64,000 bases of DNA from a virus: IMG/VR virus record IMGVR_UViG_3300027985_000872, positions 1 to 64,000 of that record, one strand, 5' to 3'. Positions 3,798-48,040 of this stretch are shown piece by piece; the stretch's first letter is position 1; every line of letters starts with the position of its first letter. Below the pieces are notes generated by a model, which ran no database searches, was not told where the DNA came from, and saw nothing but the letters and a program-made list of their open reading frames with translations. The position numbers and the translations under genes were made by a program.

Positions 3798-3883
3798 TGT
3801 GGGGTATGCAAGCGGTCAAAGCAGAGGGTTTCATAAGCCATCGACCTCGGTCTTCGTGGGTTCAAGTCCCACCCTCACAACCA
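3798..3883 (+). tRNA. Class II (long variable arm) tRNA with CAT anticodon
   Basis: 86 nt with encoded CCA. The acceptor TGTGGGG/CCTCACA has one G-T pair. The D-stem has 3 bp, as in Leu/Ser tRNAs. Anticodon loop TTCATAA has CAT at 3832-3834; the anticodon stem has one G-A mismatch. The variable arm is 14 nt with stem GACC/GGTC, T-stem GTGGG/CCCAC, discriminator A. The scaffold looks like tRNA-Leu (A73, long variable arm), but the anticodon would read AUG, or AUA if lysidine-modified. Confidence 0.8.
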
Positions 3884-6807: not shown

Positions 6808-7471
6808 TCCATGTTACACAGATGGCGGCAAGAAAGATATCGACGATCATGGTGATTGGTGCAAGGTAACACTAGAAGTAACAGATGAGTTCTTCGAAGT
6901 TCTAAAACAAAAACCGATAGTAGAGTTCAATCCTGAGGATAACTGGGACGGAGGCACGTACTTCTTCGGTGGTAAATACCCGATCGAATCGTACAAACAA
7001 GTTGGTAATCACTGCAACGATGCTGGCATGACATGCATCGCCGACTATGAGAACATCAAGGGGTTCGATTGGCATGAGTTATGCGATGTCTGGTTTAAAG
7101 CCAGTGCTACTGACGTGACATGTCCTATATGTAATGGAACTGGTAAAAAAGATAAAGTAGAGGAATTCAAAGAGAAATATAGGAAAATCTGTAGTGGCGA
7201 TGAAGAGTTCATGGAGTTATTTGGTAACTGTGATTGTTGTTATGGAAAAGGTGTAACCGAAGGTCGTGATCATAGTGCTACGCTGAACGATTACGGACAT
7301 TTCTTAATGCTTGGAGATACCTTCCTAGGCGACGTTGGAGCAACTGTCTACGCTCACTATAATGATAAGAATGAGATAGACGCTCTTGCATTGGACGTAG
7401 TCGGATATACTTTCAGTTGTGAAGATGAAGAGGAGTACGACGAAGAGTTCGAAGAAGAATGCGAGGAGTAA
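6785..7471 (+). CDS. Hypothetical protein with DnaJ-type CxxCxGxG zinc motifs
   Basis: 228 residues. Residues about 1-110 are an unrecognised alpha/beta domain (starts MKTIVITDPCYTDG). At about 116-160 there are two CPICNGTG and CDCCYGKG repeats, the signature of DnaJ-like zinc modules, implying one zinc site. The C-terminus is strongly acidic. SD TAGGAGAAAAC. The zinc module probably binds a protein partner; activity unknown. Confidence 0.7.
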   Translation: MKTIVITDPCYTDGGKKDIDDHGDWCKVTLEVTDEFFEVLKQKPIVEFNPEDNWDGGTYFFGGKYPIESYKQVGNHCNDAGMTCIADYENIKGFDWHELCDVWFKASATDVTCPICNGTGKKDKVEEFKEKYRKICSGDEEFMELFGNCDCCYGKGVTEGRDHSATLNDYGHFLMLGDTFLGDVGATVYAHYNDKNEIDALALDVVGYTFSCEDEEEYDEEFEEECEE

Positions 7472-7472
7472 C

Positions 7473-7568
7473 ATGCGAAGACGAAATATGTCTAGAAAAA
7501 AGAAGAAGACTAAGAATGATCTGATGAACCACGCAAGAAGAAGATTCGAGGAGAGATATGGAGAATAA
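7473..7568 (+). CDS. Arg/Lys-rich 31-residue peptide
   Basis: ATG at 7473 with SD GCGAGGAGTAAC. Begins MRRRNMSRKKKKTKN; ends at TAA immediately before the TTG start of the next gene. Likely a nucleic-acid-binding microprotein by charge; otherwise unknown. Confidence 0.5.
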   Translation: MRRRNMSRKKKKTKNDLMNHARRRFEERYGE

Positions 7569-7811
7569 TTGACAGAAGAAGAACTCCATGTCTACAATAA
7601 GCTCATAAGAGAGCGCAATGATAGAGTTGCTCTAGTGGAGAAACAGACCAACACGAGGAGTATCTATCTGATAGACGACAAGATATATGCCGTCTACAAT
7701 AATCAGTTGAAGAGTATCTGTACATTCTTGGTCAAGTATATGGTAGACAAGAATCACTGGAAAACTTTAAACGAAGATACAAATAAGGTGAATAATGGGA
7801 GTGATACATAA
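7569..7811 (+). CDS. Hypothetical protein, TTG start
   Basis: 80 residues from TTG at 7569, with SD GGAGAATAA immediately upstream. The sequence begins MTEEELHVYNKLIRERNDRV; a Tyr-rich beta segment (SIYLIDDKIYAVYNN) follows. No family recognised. Confidence 0.6.
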   Translation: MTEEELHVYNKLIRERNDRVALVEKQTNTRSIYLIDDKIYAVYNNQLKSICTFLVKYMVDKNHWKTLNEDTNKVNNGSDT

Positions 7812-8148
7812 ATTCGTAGCCAGTAAGGGAGAGAAACCAATGTACAAAGCGTTCAATGCTATGGAGTTGACCGACGAAGATTTCAAGAAGATACTGACTT
7901 ATGATGATATTATCTGGGACGATCACAAACGTCTACTAAAGCATAGATGCTGCCCCTTATGGTTAGCAAAGAAGTTCGGTAAATCTGATAAGTTCTACGA
8001 GAGAATCGTGGCCTTCGTTGCGTATCCAAATAGAAAGCATATGATAAGCAAAGGTCTATCAGACTCTGATAATAGAGTAAAAAACTACGTTAGACGAGTC
8101 ATAATGAACGACTTTTTATACATAATCTCCAAGCTAGAGATCTATTAA
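7795..8148 (+). CDS. Hypothetical protein
   Basis: 117 residues, overlapping the previous gene by 17 bases; SD AAGGTGAATA. Basic and helical, with CCPLWLAKKFGKSDKFYERI followed by a second helical pair. It resembles no family I can name. Lies just upstream of rtcB with 11 bases between. Confidence 0.6.
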   Translation: MGVIHKFVASKGEKPMYKAFNAMELTDEDFKKILTYDDIIWDDHKRLLKHRCCPLWLAKKFGKSDKFYERIVAFVAYPNRKHMISKGLSDSDNRVKNYVRRVIMNDFLYIISKLEIY

Positions 8149-12762: not shown

Positions 12763-12841
12763 GGGCGATGGGACTGCAAGGGGTGGTCACCAGTTTTGCA
12801 ATCTGGAAATCAGCAGGGTTCGATTCCCTGATCGTCCACCA
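12763..12841 (+). tRNA. tRNA-Ala(TGC)
   Basis: Acceptor GGGCGAT/ATCGTCC contains G3-T70, the alanine identity pair. Anticodon loop TTTGCAA; stem CCAGT/TCTGG has a T31-T39 mismatch. T-arm CAGGG/CCCTG. Encoded CCA, discriminator A. Base 8 is G rather than the usual T. Confidence 0.88.
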
Positions 12842-12862
12842 AAAAGAGTAAGATATATGAAA

Positions 12863-12873
12863 AACCGATTCGA
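12863..12873 (+). promoter_or_regulatory. AACCGATTCGA motif, copy 2
   Basis: Lies between the Ala and Gln tRNAs, 40 bases before tRNA-Gln. It may restart transcription inside the tRNA array, or mark a former gene start. Confidence 0.5.
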
Positions 12874-12913
12874 AAAAAGGGAGAAGTTACAGCAACAGGT
12901 TAAATAATTTAAT

Positions 12914-12989
12914 TGGCCTGTCATCTAAACGGTTAAGATACTGGACTTTGACTCCAGCAATCAGGGTTCGATTCCCTGCGGGTCTGCCA
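12914..12989 (+). tRNA. tRNA-Gln(TTG)
   Basis: 76 nt. Anticodon arm CTGGA-CTTTGAC-TCCAG, T-arm CAGGG/CCCTG, discriminator G, encoded CCA. Acceptor TGGCCTG/CGGGTCT has T1-T72 unpaired; a weak first pair is typical of Gln tRNAs. Confidence 0.9.
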
Positions 12990-12999
12990 GATATAAAAT

Positions 13000-13076
13000 G
13001 GGGCTGAAGATGAAGTGGTGGAATCACCGGCCTGTCACGCCGGAGGAAGTGGGTTCGACTCCCATCGGTCTCGCCA
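13000..13076 (+). tRNA. tRNA-Asp(GTC)
   Basis: 77 nt. Acceptor GGGGCTG/CGGTCTC with several G-T pairs, anticodon arm CCGGC-CTGTCAC-GCCGG, discriminator G as expected for Asp, encoded CCA. Confidence 0.92.
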
Positions 13077-13122
13077 AGATAGTAGTTTTCTGAGGGTTCT
13101 ACTTATAAAAACTCTCTATTGT

Positions 13123-13199
13123 GTTGGCTGTAGTTTAGTTGGTTAAAACGCTAGGTTGTGACCCTGGCAACGCCGGTTCGAATCCGGTCGGCCACCCCA
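13123..13199 (+). tRNA. tRNA-His(GTG)
   Basis: 77 nt including the histidine-specific extra G(-1) opposite C73. Anticodon arm CTAGG-TTGTGAC-CCTGG. T1-C72 is unpaired next to the G(-1)-C73 pair. Encoded CCA. Confidence 0.9.
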
Positions 13200-13212
13200 A
13201 AAAGAAAGTAAT

Positions 13213-13286
13213 GCCGGTGTAAGCTAGTGGCAAACTGCCTGACTTCCAATCAGGACTCGAGAGTTCGATTCTCTCTACCGGCACCA
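13213..13286 (+). tRNA. tRNA-Gly(TCC)
   Basis: 74 nt. Acceptor GCCGGTG/TACCGGC, anticodon arm CCTGA-CTTCCAA-TCAGG, T-arm GAGAG/CTCTC, encoded CCA. Confidence 0.93.
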
Positions 13287-13450
13287 TAAATAAATAGGGA
13301 GGTTGAAGACCTGCTGAAAGACATTAAAGTAGTTTGATCGAGTAACAGACGCAAAGGCAATAAAAACCACAGAGCTGGAGGAAGGGTCCAGACAGGCTCT
13401 TTCAGATGAACAGATGGGTAATAAGCAGGGGATAAACCTTTCCAGCGTTA
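13287..13450 (+). other. Non-coding spacer in the tRNA cluster
   Basis: No credible gene on either strand. It can fold into small hairpins (AGGT-TGAAG-ACCT near 13303; CTGGA-GGAAGGG-TCCAG near 13375-13391 within an AGAGC/GCTCT outer arm). It may be the remains of an eroded tRNA or a stable processing spacer. Confidence 0.35.
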
Positions 13451-13535
13451 AAGACAGTAGCTCAGTCGGAAGAGTGCCGGCATTTGCATTTGCGTTTGGA
13501 GCCGGAGGTCGCGGGTTCGAGTCCCGCCTGTCATT
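13451..13535 (+). pseudogene. Degenerate tRNA-like element with a 19-nt anticodon loop
   Basis: D-stem GCTC/GAGT, anticodon stem CCGGC/GCCGG and T-arm GCGGG-TTCGAGT-CCCGC are intact, and GACAG/CTGTC forms the acceptor core. The anticodon loop (13482-13500) is 19 nt instead of 7, made of three related hexamers (TTTGCA, TTTGCG, TTTGGA). No CCA is encoded, unlike all the other tRNAs. Best read as a tRNA gene spoiled by hexamer expansion. Confidence 0.65.
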
Positions 13536-13550
13536 AAAGCTATATATTAT

Positions 13551-13628
13551 CCGGGTGTAGCGCAGTCTGGTTAGCGCACTTGTTTTGGGAACAAGGGGTC
13601 GAAGGTTCAAATCCTTCCATCCGGACCA
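13551..13628 (+). tRNA. tRNA-Pro(TGG)
   Basis: Acceptor CCGGGTG/CATCCGG, anticodon arm CTTGT-TTTGGGA-ACAAG, T-arm GAAGG/CCTTC, discriminator A, encoded CCA. Confidence 0.93.
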
Positions 13629-13638
13629 TAAATTTTGT

Positions 13639-13713
13639 GGAGCGTTCGTCTAGTGGTCTAGGATGCCAGACCTTCAATCTGGTCACACGGGTTCAAATCC
13701 GTACGCTCTCCCA
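13639..13713 (+). tRNA. tRNA-Glu(TTC), T-arm one base short
   Basis: Acceptor GGAGCGT/ACGCTCT, Glu-like D-arm (TTCGTCTAGTGG), anticodon arm CCAGA-CCTTCAA-TCTGG. The T-stem reads ACGGG before the loop but only CCGT after it; one more C would restore a perfect ACGGG/CCCGT stem. Encoded CCA. Confidence 0.8.
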
Positions 13714-13723
13714 ATATAATAGT

Positions 13724-13801
13724 GGTTGGGTAACATAGTCGGTTTAATGTACCGGACTTTTAATCCGGGTTACGTGGGTTCGAGTCCCACCCCATCCACC
13801 A
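13724..13801 (+). tRNA. tRNA-Lys(TTT)
   Basis: Anticodon arm CCGGA-CTTTTAA-TCCGG, T-arm GTGGG/CCCAC, encoded CCA, discriminator A. Acceptor GGTTGGG/CCCATCC has a T3-T70 mismatch. Confidence 0.88.
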
Positions 13802-13807
13802 CTTAAT

Positions 13808-13882
13808 GGTCGCGTAGTTCAACGGTAAGAACTCCAGTCTGATATACTGGCAACAAAGGTTCGACTCCTTTCGCGACTACCA
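13808..13882 (+). tRNA. tRNA-Ile(GAT)
   Basis: 75 nt. Acceptor GGTCGCG/CGCGACT, anticodon arm CCAGT-CTGATAT-ACTGG, T-arm AAAGG/CCTTT, encoded CCA. Confidence 0.92.
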
Positions 13883-13893
13883 TTTTTTACAAT

Positions 13894-13966
13894 ACCCGGT
13901 TAGCTGGGGGATTATCGCCGTCCTTACAAGTCGGAGACGTTGGTTCGATTCCAACACCGGGTACCA
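13894..13966 (+). tRNA. tRNA-Val(TAC)
   Basis: 73 nt. Perfect acceptor ACCCGGT/ACCGGGT, anticodon loop CTTACAA on stem CCGTC/GTCGG with one T-T mismatch, T-arm GTTGG/CCAAC, encoded CCA. Confidence 0.9.
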
Positions 13967-13971
13967 TATAT

Positions 13972-14047
13972 GCTCCTGTGGTGCAATGGTCTAGCATGAG
14001 GTCCTTATAAGCCTTAGATTCAGGTTCGATTCCTGGCAGGAGTACCA
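13972..14047 (+). tRNA. tRNA-Ile(TAT)
   Basis: 76 nt. Acceptor GCTCCTG/CAGGAGT, T-arm TCAGG/CCTGG, encoded CCA. The loop CTTATAA gives TAT, reading AUA. The anticodon stem is either AGGTC/GCCTT with a mismatch, or GAGGT/GCCTT with an 8-nt loop. Confidence 0.82.
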
Positions 14048-14051
14048 TTAA

Positions 14052-14127
14052 GCTGGCATAGTTAAATGTGTTATAGCACTAGCTTTGTAACCTAGTATTC
14101 TCAGTTCGATTCTGAGTGCCAGCTCCA
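14052..14127 (+). tRNA. tRNA-Thr(TGT)
   Basis: 76 nt. Perfect acceptor GCTGGCA/TGCCAGC, anticodon loop TTTGTAA on stem CTAGC/CCTAG with C31-C39 unpaired, T-arm CTCAG/CTGAG, encoded CCA. Confidence 0.88.
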
Positions 14128-14169
14128 TTTAAGAATTATATAGTATAAAAGATTCCAAAGGAGAAATAA

Positions 14170-14324
14170 ATTGAATCTAAAATATGCACAAAGTGCAATG
14201 AAACTAAACCAATTGAAGAATTTTCTTGGAAGATAGAGCATGGTCTATAGAACATATATTAGAAGAGATAGCTAAATGCGAGGTGTTATATGCTAACTGT
14301 CATGCGGAAGAGCATGAGAAATAA
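14170..14324 (+). pseudogene. Remnant of an HNH homing endonuclease
   Basis: SD-like AAGGAG precedes a frame reading ESKICTKCNETKPIEEFS, the usual zinc-knuckle N-terminus of phage HNH nucleases, which stops after WKIEHGL. A second frame overlapping it reads WSIEHILEEIAKCEVLYANC then HAEEHEK and a stop, the usual C-terminal HNH/zinc end. The catalytic middle is missing and the frames do not join, so this is a decayed mobile gene within the tRNA cluster. Confidence 0.72.
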
Positions 14325-14331
14325 GTATTAA

Positions 14332-14406
14332 GGGTGTCTAGTATAACGGTAGTACTGCAGCCTCCAAAACTGCACAGTGAGGGTTCGAATCCTTCGGCGC
14401 CTGCCA
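14332..14406 (+). tRNA. tRNA-Trp(CCA)
   Basis: 75 nt. Acceptor GGGTGTC/GGCGCCT with G-T pairs, anticodon loop CTCCAAA on stem GCAGC/ACTGC with C31-A39 unpaired, T-arm GAGGG/CCTTC, discriminator G as in bacterial Trp tRNAs, encoded CCA. Confidence 0.9.
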
Positions 14407-39231: not shown

Positions 39232-40428
39232 CTATGTACTGTTCTTTAAGTATTTAAGCACCTCCGATGAAGATCCAGTAAATTTAGCTTTTTTACTTAA
39301 AGCTAAAATTCTTCTCCAGCGACTATATAAGCTTTTAGTTATTCTTCCACCTCTATTCAATATCTGCTGCTTAATTGTTAAAAAATCTCCAGTTATTGCT
39401 ATTAACTCTATATCGAATTGTTGTTCTGCTTGTTTCAAGAAACCTGTAATGTTAACAGTTGGATCGTAAACAGCGATCTTACCTTGCTCTATTTTTAGTA
39501 ATTTTTCTATGGGCGATTTCTTTTTATTTTTATCATAAGACACATAATGAAATTTATCAACTGGTAATTGATTACTGATCCAACTTTTACCACTACCGGA
39601 TACACCTATAATAACAATTAACTTAGGTTTACAATATCTCCAAATTCTTTTAGCTGCCGTTTTTTGCTTACCTTTAATATTCTTAACTATATTAGATGGA
39701 AAAACATTATAATGTGCAGCAGCATCCTTAATAGAGTTAAAAATTTCTCCAATATCATTAACTACTGCTTTTTGATGTCTTTCGTTGGCAGCTATTAATT
39801 TATTTTTAACTTCAGGACGCCGAAATGATGCTTTTACGCCGTCACTTACTCGTTTAAGATATTCAGGATCAGCGGACAATTCTTTTCCTATTTTACTCTG
39901 TCTTTGACGGTTTTCTTCTGATCTCCAATACTCCTTTTGCTTAATGGATTTATTAGCTCTATATATAGGGTCTTGCCAAGCTTTTGTAAAGCGTTTACTT
40001 CTCTCTTGTCGTAGTTCAGGTTTATCTTGAAATCTTTTCTTATGAGTATTACTCATCTTGTCTTTAGTTTCTTGGGGTAATTTAGTGCCCATTTTAGCAT
40101 CACTCATCTTCTGTTTACTCTCATCGGAGTACAGATTATTAAAGCCGCCAGATTTCAAGTTATAACCATTAGGGGTTAGTGATTGCTCCTTTTCAATATA
40201 TAATTCTTCTAAGATATTTAATTCTTCAATAGATGATGCAATGTGTATTTCTTCAATCTTAAAGTTATCAACTCCATATTTCGCTATTGCTCCATGGATA
40301 GCTGTTTTTTTCTTAGAATTACTAGCAGCACTGCGACAATGACCTTTCCAACGTCTCTTAAGTGTTTTAGTGGTTTGTCCAATATAAATCTTACCATTAG
40401 TTAAATTAGTAATACGATATATAATCAT
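39232..40428 (-). CDS. GIY-YIG homing endonuclease fused to a polynucleotide-kinase-like P-loop domain
   Basis: 398 residues, SD GAGGGAG. Residues 1-90: GIY-YIG nuclease (IYRITNLTNGKIYIGQT, KAIHGAIAKYG region, LEELYIEKE). Residues about 100-200: NUMOD3-type repeats (SDESKQKMSDAKMG). Residues about 215-265: NUMOD1/HTH (VVNDIGEIFNSIKDAAAHYN). Residues 267-398: P-loop NTPase with Walker A GVSGSGKS (275-282), YVSYDKN, AVYDPTVN and RGG, the same order as the T4 Pnk kinase domain. Cuts DNA to spread itself; what the kinase does is unknown. It sits downstream of the capsid gene and its terminator. Confidence 0.88.
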   Translation of the reverse strand: MIIYRITNLTNGKIYIGQTTKTLKRRWKGHCRSAASNSKKKTAIHGAIAKYGVDNFKIEEIHIASSIEELNILEELYIEKEQSLTPNGYNLKSGGFNNLYSDESKQKMSDAKMGTKLPQETKDKMSNTHKKRFQDKPELRQERSKRFTKAWQDPIYRANKSIKQKEYWRSEENRQRQSKIGKELSADPEYLKRVSDGVKASFRRPEVKNKLIAANERHQKAVVNDIGEIFNSIKDAAAHYNVFPSNIVKNIKGKQKTAAKRIWRYCKPKLIVIIGVSGSGKSWISNQLPVDKFHYVSYDKNKKKSPIEKLLKIEQGKIAVYDPTVNITGFLKQAEQQFDIELIAITGDFLTIKQQILNRGGRITKSLYSRWRRILALSKKAKFTGSSSEVLKYLKNST

Positions 40429-40520
40429 GCAGTTTACTCCCTCTTCAAGAATATCTACATTAATTGTACCTATACATTAATTAAACAGTTAACCATACTA
40501 TGTAAAAAGTAAAAATAAAA

Positions 40521-40540
40521 AGGGTCACCTAAGTGACCCT
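40521..40540 (-). terminator. Terminator after the major capsid gene
   Basis: 8-bp stem AGGGTCAC/GTGACCCT with loop CTAA, 28 bases past the capsid stop. On the minus strand it runs into TTTTTATTTTT; a T-run on the plus side makes it potentially bidirectional. Confidence 0.92.
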
Positions 40541-40568
40541 CATTTTTTAATAATTTTAAGTACTTAGA

Positions 40569-42020
40569 TTATCTACCAACGTTTTGGAATACACAGTTGA
40601 ACCTTGGAGTATACACAAAAAGTGCACCGTAAAGAACAATCGCGAATTCAAGTGCAGTACTTACAATTGCAAAATTTATTTTGGAGAGCGGAGCCAACTG
40701 CTTGAATCTCAAACATTCAGAACTCATATCCAAAAGGAATGCCTCACCGAGACCAGGAGCTTTCGCACCAGCATCTACATAAGTAGTACCAGATAGTCTA
40801 TAGTTAGCAACGAATTCTTCTGTACCAATAGCACCACCAGCAGCAGATCTATATACTCTGATATATTTCGTGTTAGCAGGGATATTAGAAAGAGTCAAAG
40901 TAACAACTTGACCAGCAGTTACAGCAACACCACCTGATTCTTGAATTGGTGCAGATTCACCAAAGTCATTCACGAATGTAACTTTGTATTGAATAGTACC
41001 AACAGGTAGATTACCACCAGAACCACCAGCAGCAGCAGAAACAGCTGCAGATCCCAATACAGGAGCATTTGCGTTAACAGCTCTTGCTCTAGCAGTTGAT
41101 CTTGGTCTCAAGAAAAGATTTGGTTTGAAATCAACTTGACCAGCAGATGTAGTCATTTTGTTAACATCATAACCAACAGTTTGAGAGGCCATACCAGGAG
41201 CACTTCTGAATTGAGGATAGAATTGTTTGATGAAAGAAGATAGAGCTAGAGGCTCAATATGCAATTCACTTGGAGAACCAAAGTTTTCCAAAGCAATTAC
41301 TGCTAAATCTTCAATATCATCTTGAGCGATAACGTTACCGTCAAGATCTTGAACAATTGATCTCCACTCACCGAATCCAGCAAAGTCTCCAGATCTATGT
41401 TGATCGTCGTCGTCACCTTTTAGAATTTGTTGTAGAAGGCCATTCATAGCAATTGAGTTGCTAGGAAGATCAGAGAGTGCGCCGTTCATAGCACCAGTTG
41501 CAATATTAGCAAAGTGTGCATGTCCCCAATACATTTCTCTTTCAAGATGCTTAAGAAGGTGCATTGTTCCTTCTTTAGCTTGTTGAGCTACAACATCACC
41601 AACAGTTGTACGGACAAGGGTCATTTGATGAGAAACTTTTCTTCTTGTTCCGAAGAAAACGATTCTTTGTCCGTCACGGATGTATGTAGAATCCTCTTCT
41701 TGAGGTGCTCCACCTTCTCCCATGTAAGGACTAGCATCAGAACCATATCCAACAAGACGGTTGTATTGTTCAAATAGGTTGTACGCTTTGTCGACAGATA
41801 CCGCAGGCCAAAACTTGAGGTTTTTCATGTCGAACGTTACTGATTTTAGTGTAGATTCTAGTGATTCAGCTTGAAGTACACCACCATAAGTTAGATCAGT
41901 CGGTTTTCCGGCTCCACCGTAACCAGCTGTGATCGCCTTATTAAGTGCTTCTACTTCTTCTGGAGACACTAGACCTTGATTTAAACCATTTACGATTTGA
42001 TTAATCATGTCATTTTCCAT
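40569..42020 (-). CDS. Major capsid protein (HK97 fold) with an Ig-like insertion
   Basis: 483 residues, SD AAGGAGAAAAAGAA. The N-terminal arm has AGYGGAGKPTDLTYGG then LQAESLESTLKS (32-60), the start conserved in capsid proteins of large phages, followed by FWPAVSVDKAYNLFEQYNRLVGYG, PQEEDSTYIRDGQRIVFFGT and SHQMTLVRTTVGDVV. Residues about 338-419 are an Ig/fibronectin-like domain (IQYKVTFVNDFGESAP to YVDAGA), extending from the capsid surface. The first about 30 residues are likely removed by the prohead protease. A terminator follows. Confidence 0.9.
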   Translation of the reverse strand: MENDMINQIVNGLNQGLVSPEEVEALNKAITAGYGGAGKPTDLTYGGVLQAESLESTLKSVTFDMKNLKFWPAVSVDKAYNLFEQYNRLVGYGSDASPYMGEGGAPQEEDSTYIRDGQRIVFFGTRRKVSHQMTLVRTTVGDVVAQQAKEGTMHLLKHLEREMYWGHAHFANIATGAMNGALSDLPSNSIAMNGLLQQILKGDDDDQHRSGDFAGFGEWRSIVQDLDGNVIAQDDIEDLAVIALENFGSPSELHIEPLALSSFIKQFYPQFRSAPGMASQTVGYDVNKMTTSAGQVDFKPNLFLRPRSTARARAVNANAPVLGSAAVSAAAGGSGGNLPVGTIQYKVTFVNDFGESAPIQESGGVAVTAGQVVTLTLSNIPANTKYIRVYRSAAGGAIGTEEFVANYRLSGTTYVDAGAKAPGLGEAFLLDMSSECLRFKQLAPLSKINFAIVSTALEFAIVLYGALFVYTPRFNCVFQNVGR

Positions 42021-42046
42021 TTCTTTTTCTCCTTAAAGTTAACTTT

Positions 42047-42760
42047 TTACAAGTTATATTTTTCAGCGATTGACTGTACATCGGCAGCTGAACCAGTTTC
42101 TACTCTGATAATATCAGCAGTATCTACAGCAGTCCCCGACTTTTTCAGTTCAAATAGTTTATTTGCCACATCTGACTTAGATAATGGCTCAGCTTCTTCT
42201 TCATCTGATTTTTGTAGAGCGTGAAATTGACCAGCGGGAATACCTTTTCTCTCTACAGGTTGATCATTAATAGAATCAATCATGTCAGTTAGTGAAGCAA
42301 TTTTCTTTTCTAATGAGTCAAATTTAGAGTCGATATAAGATTTAATTAGACTCTCTTGTTCTTCAAGAGATTTCTTCAATAGATCTTCGCTCTTTTGAAG
42401 ATCATCTTGCTCTTCATCGGATTTTTCAACTTCTTTATCGTCATCATCGTCGTCTTTGTCGTCGTTATCGTCGTCGTCATCTTTATCTTCTGCTTTTTCA
42501 CAGTCAGATTTTTCAGCTTCGTCGTTAACGCCTTTTTCAACTTCATCCTTGTCGTCTTCGTCGTCATCGTCTTCTTTGTCTTCTGCTTTCTTAGCGTCCA
42601 ACTCACCATTTGCGGGTTTGCCAGCGAGTTCTTTGTCGCCAGGACCTTCAATTTTAATCTCGGCCGCAGAAAACTTAGATTTCTTCAACTCTTCAAGTTC
42701 TTCAAGAGTTTCATCAATGAGACTAACAAGAGATTTTGTTAATTCATCATTTTTTTCCAT
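42047..42760 (-). CDS. Acidic scaffold or capsid assembly protein
   Basis: 237 residues, SD AAGGAGACTGAG. N-terminal helix, a long Asp/Glu/Lys tract at about residues 56-118, a coiled coil and a C-terminal helix (VETGSAADVQSIAEKYNL). Located directly before the capsid gene in transcription order, where scaffold genes lie. Compositional bias gives the many long opposite-strand frames here, which are not genes. Confidence 0.75.
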   Translation of the reverse strand: MEKNDELTKSLVSLIDETLEELEELKKSKFSAAEIKIEGPGDKELAGKPANGELDAKKAEDKEDDDDEDDKDEVEKGVNDEAEKSDCEKAEDKDDDDDNDDKDDDDDDKEVEKSDEEQDDLQKSEDLLKKSLEEQESLIKSYIDSKFDSLEKKIASLTDMIDSINDQPVERKGIPAGQFHALQKSDEEEAEPLSKSDVANKLFELKKSGTAVDTADIIRVETGSAADVQSIAEKYNL

Positions 42761-42788
42761 CTCAGTCTCCTTTTAGATTAGATTAAAA

Positions 42789-43190
42789 TTATTGTCCCAT
42801 TCCTAACATTTCAACATCAAAGATTACATCTTCATCATAAGATGCATCACTGTTTTCTAGTTGAACTAGTCCACCTTGTGAAAAGTCAGCACAAGCTGTC
42901 AATACACGCATTGCTACAAGTCCGTCAACTACGTCAACGTAAGTACCTGCTGTGTTAATTGCACTCTTGATTTTCAAAACACCAGGGTTGGCTACTTCTG
43001 TAAGACCTAAGAAAGGCGCAGATCCACCAAAACTTCCACCCATAGGATTTTGAATGCTAGCTTCAACATAAGAAATCGTAAGATCGTTACTTCCATTATC
43101 AACAACTACATCATCACCACTACGTGTTACTGTTAGTCCTAGAAGTTCGAGCTTACGAGCAATTTTGTCCATTCTTGCTACTTTAGCCAT
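42789..43190 (-). CDS. Head decoration-like protein
   Basis: 133 residues, SD AAGGAGAATGAA. MAKVARMDKIARKLELLGLT then a beta-rich Gly/Ser domain (NPMGGSFGGSAPFLGL). Size, beta content and position between protease and scaffold fit a small capsid surface protein. Confidence 0.6.
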   Translation of the reverse strand: MAKVARMDKIARKLELLGLTVTRSGDDVVVDNGSNDLTISYVEASIQNPMGGSFGGSAPFLGLTEVANPGVLKIKSAINTAGTYVDVVDGLVAMRVLTACADFSQGGLVQLENSDASYDEDVIFDVEMLGMGQ

Positions 43191-43320
43191 TTCATTCTCC
43201 TTATTCGTTCTGTTATTAGAACCGTTTGTTACTTTTTATAACAGTTCAGTATATTACTATACCATATATGCTTACCTAAACATAAGTAAGTACATCAGTA
43301 TTACAATATAATTATACCTG

Positions 43321-44889
43321 TTACTTTGCTATTAACTTATAAAGATCTTTAAGAGAAAAGTTTTTACTACAATCTCTGCATTTTACCTGATTTTTATGAT
43401 ATATCTGCTCTTTACCACAGTTTTTACAAGTTATATATTGAAAACCCTCTTTTTTATTATTATCTTCTAAGCTTTCAGATTGAATAACTGCCCCACCAGT
43501 AGCATCAGTTGGAGAACCAGAGCCACCATAACCAGCATATAATGCCTTAGTTATTTCTTTATTTTTAAGTTTTTTTGCTCGATCTAATCGTTCTTTTAAT
43601 GTGGGTTTACGATAAGCACCTTTAGGATCAATGGGTTTTCTTACATCCCATTCAATCTTTTTTTCACTATGTGGGATTACTTTTTCTTGAGGAACAGGCT
43701 CTTTAATTGCGGATTTCGGTGTAGTTTCAGGTGTCTTACCAATATTCTGAGCTGCAACAGCTAATGCTGCTGTACCTGCTAACCCAGTCAGTGCTCTTCT
43801 TATTTCACCTTTTTCAATATCACCTTCGTCTTTTTCTAGATGCTGTGATATTCTATCAACCATTAAATTAATGCGCTTATTATCAATGCCTTTATCCGTT
43901 AACTGCTGGCGTAAATTATCTAAATACTTAGGATCCTTATTTGCCCTATTTGCATGAATTTTAAAGGTATTTGTGGCTTTAACTTGACGTGCACTCTGTA
44001 CGGGCGTAATATCTTTTCCAGGCCCTGGAGGCGTAGTTAATATACCACTTGGTTTTTTAACTTGAGCAGTAGCAAAACGTTTTGCTCTTACAGCTTCTGT
44101 CAATTTATCGCCGTTGAACTGTTTCATCAAGTTATTGATTTTCTTAACATTGTTTAAGATTTTTGCTTCTAATGCACTTTTTATAAGTTGTTCAGGGTTA
44201 GTTTCTTCTATTGTTATATTTATTCCAGTGGCTTTAGCTAACTCTTTTATTTTCTCAATATTATTGATAATTCTTGATGCTTGGGCATTTCTTTGAACAT
44301 GTCTGAATGATGGAACATTTTCTTCTGCAAGATGCATTACACTTTTTATAAGTTCTTGATCTACCGCATCTTGTTCCTGATCTATGGATTTCTCCATATG
44401 AAGCGGTTCAATAAGTGTGGCTTTATTAGCAGGCGTAAAGGTAATCGCTATAGAGTGAATTTTAGTTCTTTCAAGGCGTGATGGATCTTTAATTCCGCGA
44501 CTTATAACACCACCTTCTACAGAGGCTTTAATCTTAAGTGGGCAATCTGATTTATGAATATTTCTTAGAATCGCAGCAGCGGCTTTAGCATTAGGGTGGT
44601 CTTCATCATTATATAGATAACCTGCAGCATAAATATAAGGAGCTTTAATTTGTTCCCAGTAGTATCTATGACGATCATTTTCACAATCTTCAGCTTTAAA
44701 GATCTTTTTTGCTTCAGTTACACGACCTATGCTGTTAAAAAAACCTTTACCGTGATTATCATTCCAGCGACCTCTACCAGCTTCTAGATCAGATATATCA
44801 GCACCCTCTACTGATAGAGTTTCACCTTGTGAATCACGTAATTCACTTCCAGCAACCCCGTCTATCCATAATGCCGTATCTTTTGCCAT
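43321..44889 (-). CDS. Prohead protease with C-terminal zinc ribbon
   Basis: 522 residues, SD AGGAGTATTAT. Residues 1-160 form the protease: NDNHGKGF (His46) and KASVEGG (Ser123) fit the His/Ser pair of the T4 gp21/U9-type prohead proteases, with ITFTPANKATL closing the fold. The long helical middle is likely scaffold-like. Residues 452-475 (AGYGGSGSPTDATGG ... SESLE) copy the capsid N-terminal arm motif. Residues 486-509 are a Cys4 zinc ribbon (CKNC, CRDC). Own TGGTATAATA promoter upstream. Confidence 0.8.
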   Translation of the reverse strand: MAKDTALWIDGVAGSELRDSQGETLSVEGADISDLEAGRGRWNDNHGKGFFNSIGRVTEAKKIFKAEDCENDRHRYYWEQIKAPYIYAAGYLYNDEDHPNAKAAAAILRNIHKSDCPLKIKASVEGGVISRGIKDPSRLERTKIHSIAITFTPANKATLIEPLHMEKSIDQEQDAVDQELIKSVMHLAEENVPSFRHVQRNAQASRIINNIEKIKELAKATGINITIEETNPEQLIKSALEAKILNNVKKINNLMKQFNGDKLTEAVRAKRFATAQVKKPSGILTTPPGPGKDITPVQSARQVKATNTFKIHANRANKDPKYLDNLRQQLTDKGIDNKRINLMVDRISQHLEKDEGDIEKGEIRRALTGLAGTAALAVAAQNIGKTPETTPKSAIKEPVPQEKVIPHSEKKIEWDVRKPIDPKGAYRKPTLKERLDRAKKLKNKEITKALYAGYGGSGSPTDATGGAVIQSESLEDNNKKEGFQYITCKNCGKEQIYHKNQVKCRDCSKNFSLKDLYKLIAK

Positions 44890-44910
44890 ATAATACTCCT
44901 ATTCATAGAA

Positions 44911-44920
44911 TATTATACCA
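44911..44920 (-). promoter_or_regulatory. TGGTATAATA extended -10 motif before the prohead protease
   Basis: Minus-strand TGGTATAATA 22 bases before ATG 44889, with an AGGAG SD between. Lies between the HNH endonuclease stop and the protease start. Confidence 0.7.
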
Positions 44921-44922
44921 GA

Positions 44923-46011
44923 TTATAACTTTAGATTGCGTAAGTAATCATATACTTCTTCTGCAGTACCACTATAATTACTATAATTACTACGAATTGA
45001 AAGCATTCTATTAAATCTACTAATAATGGCGTTTTCGTTAGATGTTCCTCCACGGGCTGTAATTCTCTCAATAACAACATCTGGGGATTCAACTATGAGA
45101 ACTAAATGAATATCGTATTTATCACAATAGCGATTATAAACAGTAGATATATTAGTAGGAATATCAAGTAATATGGGCTTTTCATTATAATAATTATTAC
45201 GTATAATTTTATCTAAATCTTTGATGTTTATTTTATCATAAGAAATAACAGTAAATTTATCGTTTAAATTATTCGCTATTGTAGTTTTACCAACCCCAAA
45301 TTGACCTGCCAACATATAAAATTTTCTAGGTTTATAATTACCTTGATATTTATTCATCTTATCAAGATTTTGCCATGCCCACATTGGCTGCAAATTATTA
45401 AGCGACCAGCATTCTTTAAATTCAACATCTGTTGCACTTTTATAAGTAAACCAACTATCTGGTTTAATATGATCTATTTGCCACTCACCATAATTATCCC
45501 AAGACATACCTTCTTGGAATTGAGATTCAAGGTGGTTATGTAGATCCTTTATGGAATATTGTAGAGCATCATGTATCATCTGATTCTGTTGATCAATGCT
45601 GTATTTAATAATATTATGGCGCAATGCACTCATTATGAAATTACGAAGTTTCAATTGATGTCCACTAGTTGCAAAACCATCAAAATCCTCAACTTTAATT
45701 CCTCTTTTTTGACAGCTCTTTTCAATTCGTTTCTTTAATAATGCCTCCTTATGCTCTTCACTTAATTTTTTACCCTTCTTTGCTTTAGAGATTTTATCTC
45801 CCCAAGTAATATCTCGACCTTTAGATGAAGTGTTGTATATTCCAGCTTCTGCAGCACATTTACGGCACATCTGATGGCGACGACACCATTTAACCCAACG
45901 ATAACCGTGTGGACATTCAACTTTAACCTTAATATTAGAATTTTCTTTGAGTTGATCAACTGAAATTAATTGACCTCTATACATAACTTTTTGAGTGATT
46001 ATTTTATTCAT
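44923..46011 (-). CDS. HNH homing endonuclease fused to a polynucleotide-kinase-like P-loop domain
   Basis: 362 residues. Residues 1-60: Cys/His zinc-like N-terminus (CPHGYRWVKWCRRHQMCRKC). Residues about 68-100: NUMOD3-like helix (KISKAKKGKKLSEEHKEAL). Residues 170-220: HNH nuclease (WQIDHIKPDSW, SLNNLQPMWAWQN, KMNKY). Residues 229-362: P-loop domain with Walker A GQFGVGKT (236-243), VISYDKINI, LLDIPTNIS and RITARGG, homologous to the tail of the GIY-YIG protein at 39232. TATAAT lies 6 bases before ATG, so translation may be leaderless. Confidence 0.85.
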   Translation of the reverse strand: MNKIITQKVMYRGQLISVDQLKENSNIKVKVECPHGYRWVKWCRRHQMCRKCAAEAGIYNTSSKGRDITWGDKISKAKKGKKLSEEHKEALLKKRIEKSCQKRGIKVEDFDGFATSGHQLKLRNFIMSALRHNIIKYSIDQQNQMIHDALQYSIKDLHNHLESQFQEGMSWDNYGEWQIDHIKPDSWFTYKSATDVEFKECWSLNNLQPMWAWQNLDKMNKYQGNYKPRKFYMLAGQFGVGKTTIANNLNDKFTVISYDKINIKDLDKIIRNNYYNEKPILLDIPTNISTVYNRYCDKYDIHLVLIVESPDVVIERITARGGTSNENAIISRFNRMLSIRSNYSNYSGTAEEVYDYLRNLKL

Positions 46012-46489: not shown

Positions 46490-47131
46490 TTATTTATTAC
46501 AGTTTTCGCAGCATGTGGTTTCACAAGCTTCATTGTCATCTGCATGACATTCACAGCAACATCCAGGCTCATCACTAACTAATTCTAATTTAGCAGGGAG
46601 CTCTCTGATGCCGATAATTTCAACATTATGAATAACACCATTAATATCAGCTTGAAATTTATCGCCAACTTTTTTACCAATCATATCATTTTTCATCGCT
46701 TCATATGGTATCTGTACAACAGGAATTTTAGATCTAAAGATACCTTGATCAACATCGGTATCAGTCGTAGAACTAATAATAACAATACTTTCTTCTTTAA
46801 CTACATCTCCAATTGTATAACCTTTTTCAACGTCTTCTTTATCAGATGCCTCATTATAATCTTTTAATTTCAATTTATCTGCTTCCGCATCCAAAGCGTT
46901 AGTATCGATATTCATAAGGTTAATCATTGCTAATGTTCTATATTGAAGATCATTAGCTAAATTCAAACTATTAGCAGCATCTTGACGCATCATCTCAACT
47001 TGACTCATAAGTTGTTTAACCATCATTTGACTAATATTCAGTGCCATTTGAACATTCTTAAAGTCAACCTCTAATTGTCTAATGCGGTCTTTTGTTGTAG
47101 GTGCCTTACTTTTTTTGAATCCATTACTCAT
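46490..47131 (-). CDS. Coiled-coil protein with GreA/FKBP-like domain and Cys-rich tail
   Basis: 213 residues, SD AAGGAGCAAAA. N-terminal coiled coil (IRQLEVDFKNVQMALNIS). Residues about 120-185 (VVKEESIVIISSTTDTD ... GKKVGDKFQADINGVI) resemble the C-terminal domain of GreA transcript-cleavage factors. The end has CCCECHADDNEACETTCCENC, a dense metal site. The combination of coil plus GreA-like domain is like GreA itself, so binding in the RNA polymerase secondary channel is an idea worth testing. Confidence 0.55.
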   Translation of the reverse strand: MSNGFKKSKAPTTKDRIRQLEVDFKNVQMALNISQMMVKQLMSQVEMMRQDAANSLNLANDLQYRTLAMINLMNIDTNALDAEADKLKLKDYNEASDKEDVEKGYTIGDVVKEESIVIISSTTDTDVDQGIFRSKIPVVQIPYEAMKNDMIGKKVGDKFQADINGVIHNVEIIGIRELPAKLELVSDEPGCCCECHADDNEACETTCCENCNK

Positions 47132-47976
47132 TTTTGCTCCTTCTGTTTCTCTAATATTCGTTGTGCATATAATTTAAGAACAATTTTTTCTTGTTCGGTA
47201 AAATCATCATTATCATCATCTACACCAAATATTCTACTTAATTTATCCTGTAGAAAGTCTCGTATATCAGTTTCAAGCGAATCGAATGTGTCACCTCTAC
47301 GTTTTATTATACGTGAGGATAAAAGTGCATTGATTGCATTGGCTGTCTCTAACTTAATCTGCTGTGGAGTTTTTATCACACTAGCGTGCTGAGAATCATT
47401 AATGTGTAAGGATTCTTTATTATCTGCAATTTCCACATCGTTATTAATAGATTCTCTTGTATCTTCTGAGACACTCTCTTCTTTTTTAGTAATAAAATCT
47501 GTTACCTCTTTAAGCTCTGTTAATTGTTTCTTAACAAAGCCATTGTTCTCTAATCTTTCGTACATAGCAACAGCATGATTAAACTGCCCAAGTGTTAAAG
47601 GTTCATTATTAGTTACACACCTGTTCCAATGAGCATCGTAATCCTGATCCCACATTAATATATATTCAGTGCCATTCTGCTCTTCAAAGTCTCTTAGAAT
47701 TTCAAAGTCTTCATATGATAACTGTGAATTGCGACCATATACAGCTGGCCAAACTTTTTCTCCATATATCGAACGATCAAAAATTACATTTAAACCATCA
47801 CATTGAGTATATAATTCCAATATTTCATCGACATAACCTGGCCCAGTATAACCTTTTTCTCTATATTTTTTATCAGGGGCTTCCATATGAATATAATGGA
47901 AACCTTTATTTTTATAAAATTCTGCTACTGACGTTTTACCAGAACGATCAAGACCCTCTAATATAATCCAACTCAT
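47128..47976 (-). CDS. Thymidylate kinase-like protein with C-terminal extension
   Basis: 282 residues from ATG 47976, SD AGGAGGAATA. MSWIILEGLDRSGKTSVAEF is the TMP kinase P-loop; VIFDRSIYGEKVWPAVYGR is the DR(Y/S) motif that contacts dNMP. Residues about 165-282 are an unrelated acidic helical extension found downstream of the kinase. Likely makes dTDP or another dNDP for DNA synthesis. Overlaps the next gene by four bases. Confidence 0.78.
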   Translation of the reverse strand: MSWIILEGLDRSGKTSVAEFYKNKGFHYIHMEAPDKKYREKGYTGPGYVDEILELYTQCDGLNVIFDRSIYGEKVWPAVYGRNSQLSYEDFEILRDFEEQNGTEYILMWDQDYDAHWNRCVTNNEPLTLGQFNHAVAMYERLENNGFVKKQLTELKEVTDFITKKEESVSEDTRESINNDVEIADNKESLHINDSQHASVIKTPQQIKLETANAINALLSSRIIKRRGDTFDSLETDIRDFLQDKLSRIFGVDDDNDDFTEQEKIVLKLYAQRILEKQKEQK

Positions 47977-48017
47977 TATTCCTCCTGTCAAGATAATTAT
48001 ACTAAAAGCATAAAATA

Positions 48018-48040
48018 AAAAGGCCACTAAGTGGCCTTTT
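48018..48040 (-). terminator. Terminator after the portal gene
   Basis: 10-bp stem AAAAGGCCAC/GTGGCCTTTT with TAA loop, 22 bases past the portal stop, followed on the minus strand by TATTTTATG. Confidence 0.9.

Follow-up and report, generated by a model that had tools for sequence, protein, structure and literature searches.

Why do two homing endonucleases with unrelated nuclease domains, encoded close together in one phage genome, end in the same P-loop kinase domain? The question is raised by a stretch of 64,000 nucleotides (hereafter the window) from IMG/VR virus record IMGVR_UViG_3300027985_000872, a phage record of 166,618 bases whose source is an uncultured SPO1-like phage. One of the two genes, free-standing and on the minus strand at 39232..40428, is an open reading frame (ORF) of 398 amino acids that encodes a GIY-YIG homing endonuclease with a C-terminal kinase domain. 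Its nuclease domain occupies residues ~1-95 (40144..40428, minus strand), with Pfam PF01541 at residues 2-90; the score of 48.7 bits against Pfam GIY-YIG (cut-off 22.6) identifies the catalytic domain, and NCBIfam TIGR01453, group I intron endonuclease, matched at 91.7 (cut-off 56.05). The other gene, also free-standing and on the minus strand at 44923..46011, encodes a putative HNH / endonuclease VII-like homing endonuclease of 362 amino acids that likewise ends in a kinase domain. It matched endonuclease VII in PHROG at E=6e-7 and none of the Pfam HNH models, and its residues 115-228 are 38-52% identical to phage HNH proteins. The putative HNH core, WDNYGEWQIDHI...NNLQP...N, lies at residues ~169-221 (45349..45507, minus strand) and was recognised from the sequence and from a match of phrog_28061 to residues 169-221.

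The first-pass annotation of this DNA had claimed that the two proteins share their C-terminal region, and our alignments agree. Residues 267-398 of the GIY-YIG protein (39235..39630, minus strand) and residues 229-362 of the HNH protein (44926..45327, minus strand) align end to end with a BLASTP E-value of 8e-15, 40 of 132 positions being identical (30%) and 72 of 132 similar. The former tail is supported by this full-length alignment and an AlphaFold model, and the latter by the tail alignments and a profile search. No similarity was found between the remaining parts (heads) of the two proteins. The motifs that had been listed for the tails are all present, namely Walker A (GVSGSGKS / GQFGVGKT), (V/I)SYDK, YDPT / LDIPT, RGG and the closing G-(S/T)-x-x-EV-x-x-YL-x-N. 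Searched with a profile built from 29 tails, the whole genome of 166,618 bases yielded this pair of copies alone. A single recent gene conversion between the two genes, which had been named as a possible source of the likeness, is ruled out because the window tails, at 30% identity, fall into two separate clades of the tail tree, one clustering with other protease-site HNH genes and the other with capsid-site tails.

The tail is predicted to adopt a P-loop kinase fold, as had been proposed. Its AlphaFold model, computed from an alignment of 29 tails, is compact with a five-strand core (predicted local distance difference test score, pLDDT, 94.1; predicted template modelling score, pTM, 0.87). 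The Foldseek neighbours of the model were nearly all P-loop kinases, mostly at a template modelling (TM) score of ~0.6, with mammalian PNKP at the top followed by dephospho-CoA, guanylate and gluconate kinases. The tail has the Walker A motif, the Asp after strand 2, the lid Arg and the five-strand core by which the P-loop kinase superfamily is recognised, and its catalytic residues are intact: D33 and R93 are present in 45 of 45 tails and the Walker Lys K15 in 44. The sole exception is the first tail of locus L155, in which K15 is replaced by T (GAST in place of GSGK); further along the same ORF lies another tail, truncated by the contig end, in which Walker A is intact. No family in Pfam, NCBIfam, PADLOC or PHROG covered the tail above its cut-off, and P-loop matches alone were returned. 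As a candidate for the tail family, phrog_6931 was rejected as unspecific since it matched all 14 control genomes.

Recurrence of the tail with several nuclease types had been named, alongside intact catalytic residues, as what would support the proposal, and among IMG/VR phages we found it at the C terminus of four head types: GIY-YIG, HNH/endonuclease VII-like, NUMOD3/HNH, and repeated helix-turn-helix (HTH) motifs with a PD-(D/E)XK core. These heads, assigned by Pfam, PHROGs and fold, represent at least three unrelated nuclease folds. In the PD-(D/E)XK heads (for example at L013), E247, D279, E290 and K292 are invariant in six of six sequences; the core, modelled at pLDDT ~90, carries E...D...ExK on an alpha-beta-beta-beta-alpha-beta core and resembles T7 endonuclease I, which was among the top Foldseek matches with a probability of 1.00 but an E-value of only ~0.01. 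Scans of IMG/VR with tail alignments returned 34, 25 and 33 loci, many of them in common; the counts are lower bounds because the scans were seeded by short motifs, which miss distant relatives. Alignments of two and six sequences were required, as the same scans with each window tail as a single sequence returned nothing. The tail also occurs by itself, as a separate protein of 135 amino acids; in 11 loci without an adjoining nuclease of these classes it is a stand-alone protein of ~130-170 amino acids, and these proteins form one clade (100/100). A scan of a genome collection gave one fusion contig, which lies in a metagenome-assembled genome of Flavobacteriaceae but comes from a phage and has the same capsid gene. 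The capsid-adjacent homing genes that end in this tail belong to a family of large, uncultured viruses of bacteria. In 50,697 deposited phage genomes, single tails gave no tblastn match at E<=0.01. The positive controls in this collection were productive: a related GIY-YIG head was matched by 1,010 records and the HNH head by 124; none of the deposited records covered 80% of the GIY-YIG or HNH query, and among the matches listed the head similarity stopped at or near the head-tail border. Nor was a kinase-bearing homing enzyme found in the databases or in the published literature searched (open-licence papers).

The suggestion that nuclease modules were swapped onto a common kinase is borne out by these four head types together with the tail tree and three exact natural exchanges. 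The tail tree comprises 33 sequences, of which 32 are fused and one is the free tail of L166; across it nuclease class changes 15 times, the minimum possible being 4, and genomic site changes 3 times. Mantel tests on 21 capsid-site loci linked tail distance to capsid-protein distance (r=0.32, p=0.0001) and not to nuclease class (r=-0.02, p=0.57). One exchange is that between L013 and L166, which are 98.6% identical until ~10 bases past the capsid gene, then have unrelated heads, and resume at 95.9% identity at the first codons of the tail. Between capsid gene and tail, L013 has a PD-(D/E)XK head and L166 a 520-amino-acid protein (DUF7487); the L166 tail is a free ORF with a plausible ribosome site, AAGGA, 8 bases ahead of its ATG. 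The exchanges L114/L070 and L003/L070 involve a PD-(D/E)XK head (L114), an HNH head (L070) and a GIY-YIG head (L003), and here the capsid regions are 82-83% and the tails 72-80% identical with the heads unrelated. In these aligned sequences the swap of nucleases is confined exactly to the interval bounded by the capsid gene's end on one side and the opening codons of the tail on the other. At L006, where a tail-less HNH gene immediately precedes a GIY-YIG+tail gene, it looks as if the latter had been inserted at the head-tail joint, an order of events that we infer from the arrangement. The L006 contig also encodes, directly after the GIY-YIG+kinase gene (7205-7861), a 218-amino-acid protein with near-exact tandem repeats of HRVDGPAYIxYYxNGQVxCEQWxVN at an 84-nt period.

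The ratio of nonsynonymous to synonymous substitution rates (dN/dS) was low in the tails of close pairs whose heads differ: 0.07 between the fused L013 and the free L166 tail, 0.14 between L023 and L033, and 0.04 between the tails of L023 (PD-(D/E)XK) and L070 (HNH), which are 91% identical. These ratios were obtained by a simple counting method; for most pairs dS approached saturation, L013/L166 being an exception. The catalytic residues and reading frame of the tail are under purifying selection.

The two window genes bracket a head-gene cassette, all of it on the minus strand. The major capsid protein gene (40569..42020; PHROG major head protein, E=9e-62), whose 3' flank is the homing hot spot, encodes a protein ~31% identical to the major capsid protein of SPO1 and relatives. 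It is accompanied in the cassette by a scaffold-like gene (42047..42760; PHROG head scaffolding, E=7.5e-5) and by a prohead protease-like gene (43321..44889; PHROG head maturation protease, E=4e-9), which has the HNH gene immediately upstream. The cassette, in the order protease-scaffold-capsid, is preceded by the HNH+tail gene and followed by the GIY-YIG+tail gene. Similarly, L070/L173, L099 and L114 have an HNH+tail gene before the protease gene and another class with a tail behind the capsid gene. In the window and at each of these loci, endonuclease genes flank an essential module on both sides, which is the arrangement of a homing endonuclease gene (HEG)-island.

A census of the capsid site covered 64 non-redundant loci. 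Twenty have a fused tail and one has the free tail beside the 520-amino-acid gene; in four more, an endonuclease belonging to one of the four head types occurs with no tail, and at the remaining 39 neither such a head nor a tail is present. All 21 tailed loci have an endonuclease-type gene, so that a tail without such a gene beside it was found in none of the 64. Six related capsid-family contigs of 147-177 kb contained no tail, and related phages have the capsid site without the GIY-YIG gene; gene type and patchy presence together suggest that these genes home. L144 and L160, which belong to the 39 loci, have the same 520-amino-acid class as L166, without a tail. The proteins of this class (L144:7563-9131, L160:7607-9148 and L166:7545-9107; 513-522 amino acids, DUF7487 in the one tested) look by eye like a candidate further class of homing endonuclease with a Vsr/PD-(D/E)XK-like motif. 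At L005:5338-10286, a GIY-YIG+kinase gene follows a different capsid-like gene, with a second GIY-YIG gene and an HNH-like gene further downstream.

The first-pass annotation had further likened the tail to the kinase domain of T4 Pnk. We compared tail profiles with a control panel of E. coli kinases, T4 Pnk and the PNK-like domain of a 769-amino-acid phage ORF, and found the likeness to T4 Pnk to be no greater than that to other P-loop kinases. The fused-tail profile scored highest with E. coli gluconate kinase (gntK; 32.9 HMMER bits), which HHalign matched over 99 columns, most of the domain, followed by the PNK-like domain of the 769-amino-acid repair-type ORF of G007 (26.7), shikimate kinase (aroK; 19.6), T4 Pnk (12.7, in the P-loop region only) and the adenylate and cytidylate kinases (8-10). 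With the profile of the stand-alone proteins the phage PNK-like domain was highest (30.1), and gluconate kinase (16.3) and T4 Pnk (16.5) were level. As the tail was not closer to Pnk than to the controls, we rejected its identification with T4 Pnk: the tail is not SPECIFICALLY a polynucleotide kinase, and these scores mean that the substrate is not readable from sequence. The 769-amino-acid ORF itself (L180 in G007, the contig of L120, a relative of the window phage) joins, by eye, phosphoesterase-like, RNA ligase-like and polynucleotide kinase-like parts, and resembles a phage enzyme that heals and seals ends.

From these data we conclude that a constant, selected P-loop kinase module is combined with exchangeable nucleases at a homing-type hot spot. 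What the module does there is best explained, we think with somewhat better than even confidence, by a predicted active accessory phosphotransferase that is tied to the homing locus, the nucleases being exchangeable and the tail belonging to the locus and not to one nuclease. A nuclease cassette would enter the capsid hot spot by homing or recombination and be fused in frame with the kinase already present there; as an active nucleoside triphosphate (NTP)-dependent phosphotransferase, this kinase would act in cis with any attached nuclease and promote the persistence or spread of the homing locus. Our best guess at the substrate, a tentative one, is a nucleic-acid end or a nucleotide, since the relatives of the tail among P-loop kinases include enzymes that act on these. 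A bolder form of this explanation makes the kinase a fixed, locus-bound partner in homing or allele protection and the unrelated nucleases its interchangeable attachments, with the kinase instead of the nuclease as the selfish element that endures; this seems to us doubtful. Several observations weigh against the accessory phosphotransferase. Endonucleases without a tail are found at the same site; homing in itself can therefore do without the kinase, and a strict requirement for it is unlikely. Tails have also been exchanged over longer distances, so that the idea of a resident tail applies to only a part of the close relatives, with capsids 1-9% apart, and breaks down for others, such as L028/L155, where the capsids are 7% and the tails 54% apart. 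The association of tail and site partly reflects shared ancestry of the phage family, and P-loop kinase folds can be catalytically silent.

Among the other explanations, the one that we take most seriously, while judging it improbable, is that the kinase is cargo: carried along by the homing locus and of no use to the nuclease, it would benefit the phage through nucleotide metabolism, RNA repair or counter-defence. Free-standing relatives that form a clade of their own, in other phages and with no nuclease, speak for cargo, as do the persistence of the L166 tail as its own ORF with a plausible ribosome site and the purifying selection on the tail independent of the nuclease. What speaks against cargo is that none of the 64 capsid-site loci has a tail and no adjoining endonuclease-type gene, that the tail is missing altogether from the six related large contigs, and that it was fused in frame with several nuclease types. 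An unlikely alternative is a non-catalytic tail, that is, an NTP-binding, dimerisation or DNA-contact module comparable to NUMOD or other DNA-binding add-ons. Where known homing enzymes have add-ons, these usually serve to bind DNA (PMC10448857, PMC1564403), and the grouping of tails by genomic site, with its 3 changes, is what a target-recognition part would give; yet kinase catalytic residues are retained in tails that are only ~25-30% identical, the heads already have NUMOD3 or HTH DNA-binding parts, and the one tail that lost its Walker A, at L155, is backed up by an intact one.

We consider equally unlikely that the tail is a polynucleotide kinase acting on ends during homing, the role that had originally been suggested. 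This role is favoured by mammalian PNKP as the top Foldseek match and by the G007 PNK-like domain, which scored highest outside the tail family among the phage genomes searched (33.8 bits), whereas gluconate kinase fits the fused-tail profile as well or better, T4 Pnk scores 12.7 with it, and a phosphatase domain is absent. Moreover, the nuclease classes involved leave 5'-phosphate ends, so that a 5'-OH kinase would have no obvious job. Of the proposed end-processing homing system there thus stands a possible role, not an indicated one, because gluconate kinase scored above T4 Pnk; the likeness to T4 Pnk did not survive the control panel. Chance likeness, an artefact or one recent gene conversion we regard as hardly credible in view of the E-value of the tail alignment, the many independent contigs and the position of the window tails in different clades.

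Further kinase-type genes lie near these loci. In the window, a kinase-like gene (GLDRSGKTS) whose product has a long extension at its C terminus is found near the HNH gene at 47128-48027 on the minus strand, and in relatives a thymidylate kinase-type gene (EGTEGVGKTTQ) often neighbours the capsid gene downstream. The window also contains 16 tRNA genes, of which 14 are clustered at 12763-14406 and two further tRNA-Met genes lie at 3798 and 5127.

As far as we are aware, homing endonucleases are thought to require only a nuclease and a DNA-binding part. A selected kinase across four head types at one hot spot suggests an extra step, either in homing or in immunity to self-cutting, or else an advantage for the phage; the natural exchanges reveal how nuclease heads can be replaced at a defined joint. 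Gluconate kinase (GntK) and related small P-loop kinases are among the nearest known systems, and of the controls GntK gave the best sequence match, which spans most of the domain; the tail, however, is smaller, is fused to nucleases and lacks a metabolic context. The kinase domain of T4 Pnk (PseT) has the same P-loop kinase fold, with Walker A followed by the catalytic Asp and an Arg-Gly lid; the tail differs in having no phosphatase domain and in a sequence likeness confined to the P-loop region. Like the NUMOD modules, the tail is a C-terminal module common to unrelated nuclease classes, but NUMODs are small DNA-binding motifs and the tail is a catalytic-type P-loop domain. The free-standing homing endonucleases of phages (Seg and Mob of T4; GIY-YIG and HNH enzymes) resemble the window genes in their heads, in being lone genes among late genes beside an essential gene, and in their scattered presence. 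Known architectures of such enzymes consist of nuclease and DNA-binding modules (PMC10448857, PMC1564403); a kinase was found neither in these two papers nor among the 1,010 and 124 deposited phages with related heads. In the HEG-islands of Barth, Dunham and Seed (2023, PMC10448857), for which a kinase is not described, unlike endonuclease classes replace each other at the same places and endonuclease genes bracket the protease-scaffold-capsid module, as they do in the window. The family described here differs from those islands in that its interchanging endonucleases retain one common C-terminal enzyme domain.

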